Below are positions 19,251 to 34,820 of a DNA stretch of 34,820 nucleotides, one piece after another. The translations under genes were made by a program, and so were the position numbers. Source of the stretch: a bacterium (GTDB taxonomy: Bacteria; Patescibacteriota; Minisyncoccia; UBA6257; GWB1-50-10); NCBI GenBank assembly GCA_002686365.1, contig NZBZ01000004.1:162752-197571 (forward strand), written 5' to 3'. The stretch's first letter is position 1; every line of letters begins with the position of its first letter. A model generated the notes under the pieces. It saw nothing but the letters and a program-made list of their open reading frames with translations, was not told where the DNA came from and searched no databases.

Positions 19251-21062
19251 TCAAAGGAGCGGTCTATTTTTGCCTCTTCTTGGGGGATCTGTTTTATATA
19301 TCCTGCTCCTGAAATTTCCTGTGTGACATTTACTGCCTCGCCTATGTAGGAGAGTTTGCTTGCTCCGGAGAGAATAGTATTGAGCGAGTTCTCTATGTTC
19401 GCAGTAATACTTGATGCTCCTGATGCAGTTATTTTTGCGTCTAAGATTCTAAATTCATATCCGCTTACATGTGATGCTCCGCTTAAATCCATGTCTAGTG
19501 TTTTTGTTTCACCAACGAGTTTTATTTTTGATGCGCCTGATGCCCTGAAAGTTGTTGTGGTATTTTTTAGACTTGCCAATAGGCTTGTTGCTCCGCTTAG
19601 TGATATGTCTATTTTGTCACTTTCAAATTCAGTTACTACTCCCTCAATGTTTCCGCTTAGTTCGAGTTCTTTAAGCAGGGGAGTGGTTATTGTGATTTCC
19701 GCGCCATCTTTTATTGGGCAGAAGAAGAAGCAGAATTTGTATGGCCGTTCGAGTTCCACATTTAGCGTGTTGTCTTCGTCTACTTCTATTTCTGTGCGTT
19801 CGTGTGCCTCTTCAGAGTCGAGCACTGTGATTGTTTGCTTGTCTCCATGATGTATTAGCGCTTTTAAGTTGTATCCTTCTAAGGATGCGATAGAGAACTC
19901 ATCAAGATTTTCGTATTTTACTTCATACTTTTCACTATCGGATAGTTCTATTGACGCGTCATATATGCCCTGCTCGATTCTTGGGATATGAATGGCGCCG
20001 AGCGCGAATGCAAATGTCAGGGCAACTATCCAGACAAAGATTAGTTGCAGCATTACTGGTGTTGTAAATCGATTTTTTTTCTGCAGTATGCTGATGCCCA
20101 TAAGCATAATGACAAGCAAAGGGACGAGTATGACCAGATATGCTGCTATGAATAGAATGATTGAGAGTGTTCCTGAAGATGTTATTGAGTTTAATATGGC
20201 GAGCACTTCGGGCTGCATGCTTATGGCTTCTTTGCTTACAAGAAGGGTTATTGTAGCTGCTGTTATTCCTGCAATGCTGAAGACCGCGCTTATAAATAGG
20301 GCAATGCCTAAGATGATGCGAATTGGTTCGAAGATAATTTTAAATATTAGTCCTATTATCTGAAATATTTTTTGTAGTACTCCGCGTTTTTCTTTTTTTG
20401 GTGCTGGTTCTTTTTCTCCGTCTTCTTCGCGGTCGTGCTTGTTGGCGTTTTTCCTGTTTTTTATTTTTTCTACGCTTTCTTCTACGATTTTGCTGATTTT
20501 CGCAATGGTTACTTCTTCACCACGCATTTCCAGCTTTTGCGCAGTGGTTTCTGCTTTTGGGACTATGAGTGCAAGGATGATGTAGAGGATTACTCCGAAT
20601 CCGCCAAAGAAGATTGAGATTGCAAAGAGTAGGCGGACGATTGTGGTGTCTATGCCAATGTATGCAGCAATGCCTGATGCAACACCTGCGATAATTTTGT
20701 CGTCAGAGTCTCTGTGTAGGCGTCTTGTGTTTTGGGTTTTTGTTTGCGGTTCTTCTGGCGTGCCGTATTCTTCAAAGTCTTCTGGTTTTCCCATGGCGTG
20801 AATTATGTCTTCTACATGAGAGATAGAGATTGCGCTCTTTTCGTTTTTCCTTTTCGTAATTAGTTTTTCTGCAATACTCGTTTCAATATCTTCGATAATT
20901 TCTTCTGACTCTTCTTTTTCCGCAAAGTGTTTTCTAATTGATTCGAGGTAGTTCTCAAAAGTGTTTTCTAATTGATTCGAGGTAGTTCTCAAGTTTTTTG
21001 TATGCGTCTTCTTCTACTGCGAATACTATTCCTCCAATTGTTATGTTAACTATTTTTTTCAT
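19247..21062 (-). CDS. PspC-domain protein with DUF2807/GIN-type C-terminus; 5' end interrupted by a tandem duplication
   Basis: RRLHRDSDDKIIAGVASGIAAYIGIDTTIVRLLFA (PspC); C-terminal LSGASKL/SGASSI repeats. True start appears to be ATG at 21062; frame lost at the 34-bp duplication. Confidence 0.85.
20924..20992. repeat. 34-bp-period tandem duplication within the PspC-domain gene
   Basis: aaagtgttttctaattgattcgaggtagttctcaa twice in tandem. Confidence 0.97.
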
Positions 21063-29364: not shown

Positions 29365-29446
29365 TTTTATTTGAATTTTTATCCTTATCAGATACACTTT
29401 GTATTATGAAATTAAGTATTGGTATGGTTGGAACACAATACGACAT
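29365..29446. repeat. 82-bp repeat copy A
   Basis: Matches 32698-32779 with 3 mismatches. Confidence 0.95.
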
Positions 29447-29494
29447 GGTGATATGGTAAAAGGCGTGCCTTTTGAGCTTAGCATTACTGTATAA
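29399..29494 (+). CDS. Micro-ORF A (31 aa, TTG start) of the WNTIRH/GVPF family
   Basis: LYYEIKYWYGWNTIRHGDMVKGVPFELSITV; same frame conserved in B and C. Confidence 0.5.
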   Translation: MYYEIKYWYGWNTIRHGDMVKGVPFELSITV

Positions 29495-29504
29495 TAAAAG
29501 TTAT

Positions 29505-31340
29505 ATGAGGGTTATTTCTTATTTCTTTGGGGCTGTGGCAGTTTTCTTGGTTTCGATTTTTTTATTTTTTGTTTCTACCGTGCAGTCTGTTCAAGAGCCT
29601 ATAATTGTTGTTTCTCCTGTGGCGGGTGAGGTTATTTCGCTTGATTCTGATTATGTGATTCGTTGGAGGGTTGATAAGACTTTTGTTCCCGAATCCTCTT
29701 TTGATGTGCGTGTCGTTGGTGTTGGTGGAGAGACCATTTTTGGGGGAGGTCTTGCGATAAATTACTTTTGTGCGTCGAGCGAATGCAGTTACGTATGGCA
29801 CGCGTCTGTTCCTGTCGGCGTTTCGGACAATGAGTTTCGTATCAAGATTGGTGGAGGAGAGCAACAAGAAGGAGGGAGACAGTTCTACGCTGTTTCTGAT
29901 AGTTTTCAAATAGACATCTCCTCACTTCTTATATTGCGTGAATTGGGGCAACAGATTGATCTTGTAAAAAATGGCGATCCTTCGGAGAAAATAGATTTAC
30001 TTTTTATCCCGCATAACATATCTGATTTTTCTATTCTTAGATCTAAAATAAATGATATGTTATATAAAACTGGGACTAATATTAATGGGGGATCCATGAT
30101 TAGTCTGTTTAGCGTAGAACCATTTAAAAGTTATGGAAGCGAATTTAATGTTGCTTATGTAGATAAAAACATAGATGAAGATTTTTTTGGTTGCTGGAAA
30201 CCTGAACCTGATCCAACCGGACCTTCACGACGACTTCCCTTTCAATGCGATACTTTAAAAATAAGAGAAGGTTATAAAATATTCAATCCCGATTATATAA
30301 TAGTCCTTTTTAACGTATCTGCTGGATATGTCTCTACTGGGGGTGAGATACAATATTTAAATGTGAATTTAGAATCAAGTGATAGAATCGCAACTCTGAG
30401 TCGGACATTTGTTCATGAGTTTGGCCATCAGCTCGGGTTGGCCGATGAGTATACGGACACCTTCTCTCCTTCTTTGTCTTGCGGAGAGGCGACTACTAAT
30501 CAGTGTTTTTCCGACTATGAGAATGCTGTGCAGGTATATCCGAATCTTGATACTTTGGGTTGTCCGAAATGGTGTGGTTCGTATGATAGGATGAAATTGC
30601 TTCAAGAGAATGCGTTTTGTGTCGCATTTCAGGCGGAGGCGGAGTGCGGGAGTGCAAGTGGGGGTGGAATATGCACTTGGTTTGAACTTCCTCACCCTTT
30701 TTTTGGGTCTCGCTGTGTTATGACGTCAGGGTTTGAGGATATTGGCATAGAATGTGAGGGGGGATCGCAGTGCGTGTTTGGAGGTGATCATGGGCAGCTT
30801 GCATTCAATGCGGGGATGGGGAGCATTATGGGCGGCGGGAATATTTTTACTTATCCGTCTCGTGTTCACTTAGAAACTTTTTTACAATGTTTTCGTAATA
30901 AAGACGCATCATCTGGAGAATGCTCTAATTTTATTTCTCAATTTCGGAACGTTTCTTCTAACGTGCATTTCGATCTTCGCAAGTCTTATGAGAAGTTGAT
31001 TGATATTCTGAATTTTTCTACCTGCTCTGAAGATGTAAATGGAGATGGGAATATTAATATTCTTGATCTTGAATCTGTTGCCCGTATTTTTGGAGATACC
31101 GTTGGATTGGACGCTCAGGGCAATCGTCCGCCACAGGATATAAATGGGGATAATGTTATAAATATTATTGATCTTGCAACTGTTGCCAGAAAGTTTGGAC
31201 AGACTTGTGATGATACAGCGTACGCACCGCACAGTCCTCCACAGCGCGTTGTATTTGTTCCTGTTCAGCAACTAGAATCTACAGGAGCATCAAGATTTGC
31301 ATCAGTTCTTAAATCTATTTTTTGGGTGATTGGAGAGTAA
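29505..31340 (+). CDS. Secreted/anchored metallopeptidase (M64-like, HEFGHQLGLADEY) with C-terminal dockerin-type repeat pair
   Basis: FVHEFGHQLGLADEYTDT; DVNGDGNINILDLESVARIFG...DINGDNVINIIDLATVARKFG. Confidence 0.85.
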   Translation: MRVISYFFGAVAVFLVSIFLFFVSTVQSVQEPIIVVSPVAGEVISLDSDYVIRWRVDKTFVPESSFDVRVVGVGGETIFGGGLAINYFCASSECSYVWHASVPVGVSDNEFRIKIGGGEQQEGGRQFYAVSDSFQIDISSLLILRELGQQIDLVKNGDPSEKIDLLFIPHNISDFSILRSKINDMLYKTGTNINGGSMISLFSVEPFKSYGSEFNVAYVDKNIDEDFFGCWKPEPDPTGPSRRLPFQCDTLKIREGYKIFNPDYIIVLFNVSAGYVSTGGEIQYLNVNLESSDRIATLSRTFVHEFGHQLGLADEYTDTFSPSLSCGEATTNQCFSDYENAVQVYPNLDTLGCPKWCGSYDRMKLLQENAFCVAFQAEAECGSASGGGICTWFELPHPFFGSRCVMTSGFEDIGIECEGGSQCVFGGDHGQLAFNAGMGSIMGGGNIFTYPSRVHLETFLQCFRNKDASSGECSNFISQFRNVSSNVHFDLRKSYEKLIDILNFSTCSEDVNGDGNINILDLESVARIFGDTVGLDAQGNRPPQDINGDNVINIIDLATVARKFGQTCDDTAYAPHSPPQRVVFVPVQQLESTGASRFASVLKSIFWVIGE

Positions 31341-31453
31341 TGTTTTGGCATGGTTGGAACACAATACGACATACTGAGTGGGTGAGGGGAGTGCCGTTTG
31401 AGTTTATTATTGATATTCCAAAAAGAAGAAAAGAAAGTAAATTAATAAAATAA
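31340..31453 (+). CDS. Micro-ORF C (37 aa) of the WNTIRH/GVPF family
   Basis: MFWHGWNTIRHTEWVRGVPFEFIIDIPKRRKESKLIK; ATG overlaps the preceding stop (TAATG), ggagag upstream. Confidence 0.6.
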   Translation: MFWHGWNTIRHTEWVRGVPFEFIIDIPKRRKESKLIK

Positions 31454-31827: not shown

Positions 31828-31911
31828 AAGTGTTATTGGAGCACAATGTGACATGGAGAAAGGGCACTAGGAGTGCCTTTTTTATTTGAGGTTGAGTTGG
31901 ATGATATCTAG
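31828..31911 (+). pseudogene. Degenerate micro-ORF D of the WNTIRH/GVPF family
   Basis: KCYWSTM*HGERALGVPFLFEVELDDI*; stop TGA where other copies have CGA (Arg). Confidence 0.5.
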
Positions 31912-32014
31912 TTGTTTATTAGTTATACATTGACACGTGAAAAGAAATGTAGTATCGTACGTCCAGTTCGAAAAGGCCTTATAAGCCTAATTTCTTTCAT
32001 TGGAGGGCCAAAAC

Positions 32015-32653
32015 ATGGCCTTAGTAGATAGAGGTGCGCTTTGTTCGCTCTTGCTAAAGGAAGATCCTCCAAAAGGTCTCGTCACAGATGTGATGGGGCA
32101 CCTCGGACACTTCTTTGTGGCAGCAGAGAGTGGTAAGTACCCTCTTGGGTCCGTAGGAGATGTTGACCTCGAGGCGGTGAAAACAGCCGTAATGGGGGTA
32201 ACGGGGAATAACGTCACAAGGATTATCCCGATCTCCATCAGCAGTCTATTCCCCTGGCCGGAGTGGATGGGTGAGGATGCATACAAAGCTATTCTCAGGG
32301 ACAGTCTCAAGGTCAGCTTCAGGCAAAGCCTCGAGGACATCCTCAGGTACAACTTCTGGGTAAGGGTTGGTGACAGCCTCAAGGACGACCTCAGGAACAA
32401 TCTCTGGGACAGTCTCAAGGTCAGCCTCGAGAGTAGTCTCAGTGTCATCCTCGATGACAGCCTCAGGGACAGCCTCAGGGACAGCCTCGGGGACAGCATC
32501 TGGATCAGCCTATTTTATGCATTAGAGTTCGTCCTAGCAGGGCAGGAGGAGCAAGCGAGAAAGTTCTTTGCCCTTTTGGATGCCTGGAATGGCATTCTCA
32601 TTCTCGGCGAAAAAGGAGACGAGCCAGGAGTTTGGCTCATCCTCGTCGCCTAA
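32015..32653 (+). CDS. Hypothetical protein with short SL-type tandem repeats (DSLRDSLRDSLGDS)
   Basis: TTGACA-N17-TATCGT upstream, SD ggaggg, repeats at ~32290-32520. Confidence 0.75.
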   Translation: MALVDRGALCSLLLKEDPPKGLVTDVMGHLGHFFVAAESGKYPLGSVGDVDLEAVKTAVMGVTGNNVTRIIPISISSLFPWPEWMGEDAYKAILRDSLKVSFRQSLEDILRYNFWVRVGDSLKDDLRNNLWDSLKVSLESSLSVILDDSLRDSLRDSLGDSIWISLFYALEFVLAGQEEQARKFFALLDAWNGILILGEKGDEPGVWLILVA

Positions 32654-32669
32654 TCAAGTGACACGAATT

Positions 32670-32704
32670 CAAAAGCTCACACATACGCGTGTGGGTTTTT
32701 TATT
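32670..32704 (+). terminator. Intrinsic terminator
   Basis: cacac atacgc gtgtg followed by TTTTTT. Confidence 0.75.
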
Positions 32705-32779
32705 TGAATTTATATCTTTATCAGATACACTTTGTATTATGAAATTAAGTATTGGCATGGTTGGAACACAATACGACAT
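32698..32779. repeat. 82-bp repeat copy B
   Basis: Matches 29365-29446 with 3 mismatches. Confidence 0.95.
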
Positions 32780-32845
32780 TCTGATGAGGTGAGGGGGGTG
32801 CCTTTTTTGTTTGAGATTGGGCTTGGTGATATACTGAAAACATGA
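32732..32845 (+). CDS. Micro-ORF B (37 aa, TTG start) of the WNTIRH/GVPF family
   Basis: LYYEIKYWHGWNTIRHSDEVRGVPFLFEIGLGDILKT; TGA overlaps the ATG of the next gene (ATGA). Confidence 0.6.
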   Translation: MYYEIKYWHGWNTIRHSDEVRGVPFLFEIGLGDILKT

Positions 32846-34820
32846 TAGAAAATCCAAATTTTCTAAAAAAGAAGTATGATCTCCACAATGAGCCAGAGGT
32901 GGAGTCTGCAGTAAAAAGAAAGGAAGCAAGAACAGGAGAAAAGGTATCAGGAGCCCCAGAGGCAAAGATCCAAACATATTTGGATAGATTCGGTGAGATA
33001 CTAGAAAGAGAAGATGAGGAGAAGAGAGAGCGTGGATTAGAGGCGATAAAGAAGGTATTACACAAGCAGTTTGTTATCAAGCCGGAAGAGGTGCCGGATG
33101 GATATTTTGAGAATCAAAGACGAATAGCACGGGAGCAGGGACATGGAGATGTAGAGATAAGCGATGAGATTCGTGATCAGTTGACAGAGGTTATCGTAAC
33201 GGATCAGGAAAGTTCACTCGACAAGTGGGTGGACTACTTTGCGTCTCAAGATGCTATGTATCCTGATTGGCTAAAGTATTATGCCACACGAAGTATCCTC
33301 AGCATGGGGGAGTATGACAAGGAGAAGAAGCAGTTTACAAAGCGATCAAAAGGGACTGTAAAACCATTTCCAGACTTAAACCGTGAGGCTCTCGCATACG
33401 TACTTGACGCTATTGAGAAGAAGTACGAGGGAGAGCAGACAAGCCTTGCCGCATTTGAGGCAGAAGACAAGGAGGCGTTCGACAAGTTACTTCAGGGGGA
33501 AAACTTCGGAAAGCTCTACGCTTGGGCAATTGACAAGGTTACTCCGGACTCGGTTGGTCAACTCTCTGTTACCCAAGGCGCATGGGTGATGTATGACCAG
33601 AACTCCGACCATATGCCGCTCGTAGAATCTCTTCAGGGGCATGGTACGGGTTGGTGTACTGTGGGGGAGTCAACCGCCCAAACCCAGCTTGAGACTGGAG
33701 ACTTCCATGTTTATTACTCTCTTGACGAAGACGGTAAACCTACTATTCCTCGAGTTGCTATCCGGATGGAGGAAGGGAGTATTGCCGAAGTTCGTGGCGT
33801 TGCTCCGGAACAGAACCTTGATCCGTATATCACGTCTATCGTTCAGGAGAAGCTTGATGAGTTTCCAGATGGTAAGGAGTATGAGAAAAAGGTAGAAGAT
33901 ATGAAACGACTGACAGAGTTAGAAAAAAGACAGACTGATGGAGAGGTATTTGACGTTGAAGATTTGAAGTTTCTTTATGAGACGGAAGGGCAGGTACAAG
34001 GATTTGGATATGACAAAGATCCAAGAATTAGTGAGATGCAGGGAATAAGAGACGGGAGGCAGGATTATGCCGATATTTTTCAATGTAAGAGAGAGGAGGT
34101 TGCCATAACGCAGGATGAGTTAAGTGATCATACTATTGTTTTTGGCAGAAATTTGGATCTTCGGAATTCCCAGACCCAGGAACTTCCCGCAGGTCTTACT
34201 CATATTAGTGGAGGTCTCTATCTTGAAGGTAGTCAGCTCAAAGAACTTCCCGCAGGTCTTACTCATATTGGTGGAGGTCTCTATCTTGAAGGTAGTCAGC
34301 TCAAAGAACTTCCCGCAGGTCTTACTCATATTGGTGGAGGTTTGGATCTTCAGGATTCCCAGATCCAGGAACTCCCCGCAGGTCTTACTCATATTGGTGG
34401 AAGTTTGGCTCTTCGGAATTCCCAGATCCAGGAATTTCCTGCAGGTCTTACCCATATTGGTGGAGGTCTCTATCTTGAAGGTAGTCAGCTTAAGGGGTTA
34501 CCAGAAGGATTAACGCATATTGGCGGAAGGTTGGATCTTCGGAATTCCCAGATCCAGGAACTTCCCGCAGGTCTTACTCATATTGGTGGAGGTCTCAATC
34601 TTCAAGGTAGTCAGCTCAAAGAACTCCCCGCAGGTCTTACTCATATTGGTGGAGATCTAAGTCTTGAAGGTAGTCGGCTCAAAGAGCTTCCCGCAGGTCT
34701 TACTCATATTGGTCTAGATCTAAATCTTCAAGGTAGTCAGCTCAAAGAGCTTCCCGCAGGTCTTACTCATATTGGTGGAAATTTAAGTCTTGAAGGTAGT
34801 CAGCTCAAAGAACTCCCCGC
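32842..34820 (+). CDS. Large repeat protein (3'-truncated by window edge): N-terminal region with GWCT motif + >=10 LRR-like 21-aa repeats
   Basis: Uninterrupted frame MIENPNFLKKKYDLHNEP...GHGTGWCTVGESTAQTQLETGDFHVYYSLDEDGKPTIPRVAIRMEEGSIAEVRGV...(ELPAGLTHIGGGLYLEGSQLK)n; TATACT before ATG. Confidence 0.9.
   Translation, partial: MIENPNFLKKKYDLHNEPEVESAVKRKEARTGEKVSGAPEAKIQTYLDRFGEILEREDEEKRERGLEAIKKVLHKQFVIKPEEVPDGYFENQRRIAREQGHGDVEISDEIRDQLTEVIVTDQESSLDKWVDYFASQDAMYPDWLKYYATRSILSMGEYDKEKKQFTKRSKGTVKPFPDLNREALAYVLDAIEKKYEGEQTSLAAFEAEDKEAFDKLLQGENFGKLYAWAIDKVTPDSVGQLSVTQGAWVMYDQNSDHMPLVESLQGHGTGWCTVGESTAQTQLETGDFHVYYSLDEDGKPTIPRVAIRMEEGSIAEVRGVAPEQNLDPYITSIVQEKLDEFPDGKEYEKKVEDMKRLTELEKRQTDGEVFDVEDLKFLYETEGQVQGFGYDKDPRISEMQGIRDGRQDYADIFQCKREEVAITQDELSDHTIVFGRNLDLRNSQTQELPAGLTHISGGLYLEGSQLKELPAGLTHIGGGLYLEGSQLKELPAGLTHIGGGLDLQDSQIQELPAGLTHIGGSLALRNSQIQEFPAGLTHIGGGLYLEGSQLKGLPEGLTHIGGRLDLRNSQIQELPAGLTHIGGGLNLQGSQLKELPAGLTHIGGDLSLEGSRLKELPAGLTHIGLDLNLQGSQLKELPAGLTHIGGNLSLEGSQLKELP
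34180..34820. repeat. 63-bp coding tandem repeats, 10 full units plus a partial
   Basis: gaacttcccgcaggtcttactcatattggtggaggtctctatcttgaaggtagtcagctcaaa with small variations. Confidence 0.97.

Follow-up and report, generated by a model that had tools for sequence, protein, structure and literature searches.

The DNA analysed here, referred to throughout as the window, is a 34,820-nt stretch of contig NZBZ01000004.1 (C4; positions 162,752 to 197,571 of the forward strand) from the patescibacterial assembly GCA_002686365.1. At its right end lies a gene with an open 3′ end that codes for a conserved N-terminal domain, here called the platform, followed by a tandem array of leucine-rich repeats (LRRs). 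Its features are listed below, together with its probable remainder on another contig of the same genome, C21.

32842..34820, + strand: part of the gene in the window, 659 aa, from the open reading frame (ORF) scan; 3′ end open, frame 32842–34818
32842..34143, + strand: N-terminal platform, residues 1–434, by homology to target proteins of diversity-generating retroelements (DGRs) in the Candidate Phyla Radiation (CPR); AlphaFold2 mean confidence (pLDDT) 88.7
32842..33537, + strand: mostly helical N-terminal part, residues 1–232, in the AlphaFold2 model
33562..33861, + strand: GWCT subdomain, residues 241–340, helices and strands, weakly PcfJ-like by model, profile and fold comparison
33643..33660, + strand: GTGWCT motif, whose W271 and C272 are shared by all 61 homologues aligned
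34000..34029, + strand: GFGYDKDPRI motif, nearly invariant in the family alignment, at the helical end of the platform
34141..34182, + strand: module junction; homology to DGR-type relatives ends at about residue 434 and the first partial LRR comes next
34183..34820, + strand: LRR array, ten 21-aa (63-nt) units on C4, consensus LPAGLTHIGGxLxLxxSxLKE
C21, 3-683: probable remainder of the gene, by array search and translation

The frame is free of stops up to the window edge, as the initial annotation of this DNA had read it, and C4 also ends at this edge (position 197571), so that the assembly itself, and not merely the window, broke inside the repeat array. When the source genome (888 kb, 21 contigs, 91.5% complete) was searched with the array, the only other locus found was the left end of C21, where the array continues in the same frame for ten further units and terminates in LKELPDNIEDIVKGGIAR and a stop codon. 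The array closes there with the short cap ELPDNIEDIVKGGIAR before the stop, and a YchF-like GTPase gene, named by sequence inspection only, comes next. The two contig ends have 13 nt in common. Comparison of the two parts indicates that C21 very probably carries the other half of the window gene, and thus the contig extension that the initial annotation had called for; if C4 and C21 join, the total array would comprise at least 20 units.

Tandem Repeats Finder described the array as 10.2 copies of a 63-nt period with a score of 709, far beyond chance, and ten complete units (34183–34812) could be placed on C4 from behind residue 447 onward, in agreement with the earlier count of at least ten LRR-like 21-aa units. 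Matched by sequence against solved LRR proteins, the array found CroV588 (E = 2e-26), the variable lymphocyte receptor VLR-A (E = 4e-7) and also YopM. These PDB matches and the LxxLxLxx[N/S]xL core repeated over 20 units of 21 aa assign the array, at the level of sequence, to the leucine-rich repeat superfamily. Over the 20 units of C4 and C21, mean pairwise identity is 78% for nucleotides and 74% for amino acids; the near-identity at the nucleotide level reported before therefore holds for the best pairs, which reach 100%, but not for the units as a whole. A strict alternation of YLEGSQLK and DLRNSQIQ units had also been proposed and does not stand, since the 'SQLK' kind accounts for most units and the 'SQIQ' kind for just 5 of the 20.

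The differences between units are unevenly placed. At unit positions 11, 13, 15, 16 and 18 the amino acid differs in a mean of 0.63 of unit pairs, compared with 0.14 elsewhere, a contrast that just 4 of the 20349 sets of five positions attain. Position 12, a framework leucine, shows synonymous differences only (in 77% of pairs), while the flanking positions 11 and 13 show amino acid differences only. Positions 11, 13, 15, 16 and 18 lie on either side of the LxL strand, where side chains project from the concave face in LRR folds; the amino acid variation among the 20 units is thus placed on concave-face positions.

Ahead of the array, the initial annotation had noted an N-terminal module of about 440 aa, which here takes shape as a conserved domain of about 434 aa. 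The AlphaFold2 model of residues 1–434 is confident and mainly helical, and an alignment of 61 sequences revealed seven invariant residues (W271, C272, P303, R304, E316, R318 and G319). Pfam, NCBIfam and PADLOC gave no match to this domain and PHROG no convincing one. A mundane housekeeping fold, named by the initial annotation as the outcome that would count against its proposal, was ruled out, as the fold search of the PDB returned no match. A phage or plasmid origin was likewise rejected: the N-terminus matched nothing among 50,697 phage records or 72,556 plasmid records, and just one of 2.9 million viral contigs. Another discarded idea was that the N-terminal 86 aa serve as a targeting module common to other proteins, as these residues found only the platform family, in 8 genomes.

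Searches of genome collections holding one genome per species placed the platform family at no fewer than 255 loci of GTDB genomes; the 80 matches listed come almost without exception from CPR bacteria, and the protein is indeed of the CPR type that had been suggested. Stray members among the listed matches come from bins labelled Melainabacteria, Bacilli and others. The platform occurs in 36 of the 384 genomes of the class (about 9%), usually as a single copy, and in 15 of 99 near relatives. Five family genes (L035, L037, L051, L052 and L060) each carry a single in-frame stop, at differing sites, within an otherwise conserved platform; the stop of L035 falls at a Trp position, and these stops may reflect decay, assembly error or switching.

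Most family members are homologous to the window protein only as far as about residue 426–440; beyond that point the loci differ. Among 81 loci, classified by a script after which 15 open loci were checked by hand, about 52 end in a DGR-type module, 23 in LRRs and 6 are truncated or unassigned, so that relatives sharing the N-terminus while carrying another C-terminal class, which the initial annotation had proposed to look for, do exist. The LRR-type ends come in two main styles. A third kind of array was seen in the same slot at locus L034, with helical-looking repeats of about 34 aa that contain 'IANKLIDxG'. Five loci (L090, L093, L098, L101 and L102) have a second, unrelated-looking C-terminal variable region that ends in RLAVG, RVAVG or RVSVG, with its own A-mutated template repeats at three of the five; L102 is also the sole IMG/VR match of the family.

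The DGRs of CPR bacteria were reportedly first surveyed by Paul et al. in 2017. Here, 18 DGR-type loci hold a second copy of the 3′ end of the gene in their flanks, that is, a template repeat (TR). Under symmetric scoring that favours neither direction, 326 of the 345 mismatches between TR and variable region (VR) at these loci fall at a template A, and 6 run in the reverse sense. The ORFs that adjoin DGR-type loci code for reverse transcriptases (RTs), with RVT_1 E-values of 3e-16 to 9e-26 in the six tested. The A-specific TR/VR pairs and adjacent RTs show that homologues with the same N-terminus are DGR target proteins. Their VR module was modelled with a pLDDT of 81.4, and in a Foldseek comparison with the PDB its top matches were nearly all C-type lectins (probability up to 0.97, TM-score up to 0.51, no E-value below 0.03); the model thus identifies it as a predicted C-type lectin fold.

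The window gene itself is not a DGR target, for it has the LRR array in place of a VR, and its genome, at 91.5% completeness, contains no RVT_1. No RT was found within 4 kb of the window gene or of the LRR-type loci (about 23). Since TR scanning was uneven over LRR-type loci, RT absence is all that is claimed for this type, and a Fisher test run alongside the TR scoring (21/49 vs 0/22) is indicative only, given its rough counts and unequal flanks. The one widely recurrent neighbour of family loci is the RT cluster (18 loci, none of the LRR type); apart from it, a search for a conserved partner gene found none that recurs.

On the tree of N-terminal sequences, parsimony required 11 module changes, at least six of which well-supported branches make unavoidable. 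Measured by path, the three relatives closest to the window protein are all of the DGR type (identity up to 69%). Exchange of the C-terminal module on a conserved platform has thus recurred in evolution.

We read the gene, with a probability of roughly 0.6, as coding for a two-part recognition protein in which a conserved platform carries an exchangeable binding module. Residues 1–434 form the platform, which is spread across the CPR and is modelled as mostly helical, with the mixed GWCT subdomain. The second part in most relatives is C-type-lectin-like, and a DGR rewrites its codons through template repeat and RT; in the window genome, and at roughly one locus in four, its place is taken by an LRR solenoid, which would have grown as a tandem array and would diversify at its concave face through unit duplication, exchange and substitution. 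This face may bind changing partners, and the platform may relay or use ligand binding, making the protein a sensor or binder. The setting would most likely be cytoplasmic, in conflict with phages or mobile elements. One element of this proposal, the variable recognition surface that the initial annotation had already envisaged, is well supported, because the LRR variation falls on concave-face positions and hypervariable DGR domains occupy the same slot in the homologues.

Several observations weigh against the two-part recognition protein. Over whole units, nonsynonymous divergence (dN, 0.21) is lower than synonymous divergence (dS, 0.54), which places the array as a whole under constraint. 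PADLOC, searched for known anti-phage defence, gave no match to the window protein. The coupling of module to DGR has exceptions, as RTs are present on contigs other than that of the locus in two LRR-type genomes (G064 and G087) and missing from a DGR-type one (G010). The excess of dS over dN, and the ease with which tandem arrays grow, also suit the view that this is an ordinary LRR protein with a lineage-specific N-terminus whose repeats expanded neutrally and have no role in recognition. We consider this improbable, and the least likely of the explanations weighed here, since the variation sits on surface positions while the framework leucines change only synonymously, and since DGR domains, whose purpose is diversification, occupy the same slot, in a swap that has recurred.

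The main alternative to the two-part recognition protein set in the cytoplasm is an exported adhesin or effector acting on the host or prey cell of an episymbiont, with the LRR or DGR domain setting partner specificity. CPR bacteria live on other cells, according to the part of PMC11665869 drawn on here, and the passages used from PMC8144416 tie cellular DGR targets mostly to contact between cells or between cells and particles. The named LRR families nearest to the array, XopAC, SlrP and YopM, are type III effectors, a likeness that is confined to the repeats and lies far below the family cut-offs: NCBIfam scores of 22–36 bits, over the LRR region only, compare with cut-offs of 450–1113, so that the protein does not belong to the IpaH/SlrP/Xop LRR effectors. 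On the other side, neither a signal peptide nor a membrane helix was found, as judged by hydropathy only; the window protein reaches a maximum of 0.47 over 19 aa and has no hydrophobic segment, nor does any family member within its first 60 residues. No recurrent secretion gene lies beside the family loci either. We consider an exported protein unlikely, though it is the strongest of the competing explanations. Because no export signal was seen and no partner gene recurs, our first choice is a stand-alone cytoplasmic sensor, to which we give slightly less than even odds.

The N-terminus had further been described as enzyme- or toxin-like, for which no catalytic family match was obtained; the most promising clue is that the GWCT subdomain weakly resembles PcfJ. 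The order of its motifs, which we took to resemble that of PcfJ, was then tested by profile and fold comparison. Against profiles built from an alignment of 11 PcfJ-type proteins, the subdomain aligned over most of its length, about 92 columns, in the register that had been expected, with C272 on the PcfJ Cys and EVRG...QN on QARG...N. With the domain alone, hhalign returned P = 0.0018, a score equalled in 1 of 200 column shuffles, at an identity of about 9–10%. In a fold search of viral proteins (BFVD), PcfJ-like proteins ranked 1, 5, 6 and 10, as weak matches (E of at least 0.05, probability 0.33), and none of 11 family members matched Pfam PcfJ (PF14284) above the gathering score. Kinship of the GWCT subdomain with PcfJ is therefore suggestive and stops short of membership. 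These alignments would also suit a platform that has a PcfJ-like fold, acts as enzyme or toxin and is directed to its target by the binding module; the weak fold matches, the unmatched Pfam family and the empty PDB search speak against it, and although the Cys is invariant, no catalytic set is evident. To our knowledge, PcfJ has no established activity, and the resemblance accordingly does not make the platform an enzyme. We rate this explanation as unlikely, and less likely than the exported protein.

Around the gene, a 71–109-nt element occurs in four copies (29365–29473, 31342–31412, about 31870–31907, and 32698–32806), mostly directly upstream of genes. The two long copies are 90% identical, and all four lie within 3.5 kb, with no others genome-wide.

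32698..32806, strand not assigned: 109-nt upstream element, with copies also upstream of neighbouring genes

This element is possibly a shared promoter or leader region; a search of Rfam for structured RNA near the gene gave no match. The neighbouring ORF at 32000–32653 (+, 217 aa) contains degenerate 'DSLRDSLRDSL'-like repeats with a 12-nt period and has no Pfam match. The product of another, at 29472–31340 (+, 622 aa), bears a dockerin-type domain at its C-terminus (Pfam E = 4e-7) and looks metallopeptidase-like around HEFGHQLGLADEY. Farther away, positions 20924–20991 of the window hold a perfect 34-bp tandem duplication.

Among known systems, the closest are the DGR targets of CPR bacteria, whose DGRs form a separate clade (RT clade 2; Roux et al. 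2021, PMC8144416). In the passages drawn on from that study, these targets typically lack a recognisable domain outside the variable region, for a reason left open, and their status as genuine non-membrane targets 'remains to be established'. They have the same platform as many of the DGR-type loci here, together with TR, VR and RT. Unlike them, the window protein has an LRR array in place of the C-type-lectin VR and its genome lacks an RT; and where the targets are reported as typically domain-less, the platform is a shared, conserved family. DGR targets have also been presented as putative antigen sensors of multicellular bacteria (PMC10907252, 2024), which, from the passages used, resemble the window protein in combining a conserved partner part with a C-terminal variable sensor. 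The window gene differs in standing alone, without STAND, MoxR or protease parts, and the same passages set the clade 5F CPR/DPANN DGR targets apart from the conflict systems of that study. Neither the platform nor its LRR form appears in the passages of PMC8144416 and PMC10907252 consulted, which are from open-licence literature, and earlier notice elsewhere is possible.

The PcfJ family (PF14284) of conjugative plasmids and phages shares with the GWCT subdomain the aligned Cys and [QE]xRG...N, whereas the window protein lacks a Pfam match and has different companion domains. CroV588, the YopM, SlrP and Xop effectors and the lamprey variable lymphocyte receptors are alike in their LRR solenoid and concave-face variability; the window protein differs from them in its N-terminal domain and in having neither an E3-ligase part nor a signal peptide, and the somatic assembly of the lamprey receptors has no demonstrated counterpart here. 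A single conserved platform of 430 aa is, as shown here, present in many CPR DGR targets, and it turns up again with an LRR array occupying the variable slot. It thereby gains a second, independent class of binding module, which makes recognition the likely purpose common to both, and it provides one domain on which the relay of ligand binding can be examined. We tentatively propose, as a possibility somewhat weaker than that of a cytoplasmic sensor, that two independent diversity engines, C-type lectins mutated by DGRs and LRR arrays that are shuffled, serve a single bacterial receptor platform in alternation and have been repeatedly exchanged in evolution. If so, LRR-type members would stay diverse in the absence of an RT, with repeat shuffling possibly standing in for mutagenic retrohoming, and the family would be a prokaryotic parallel of the contrast between immunoglobulin and LRR-based receptors, the latter as in the lamprey.
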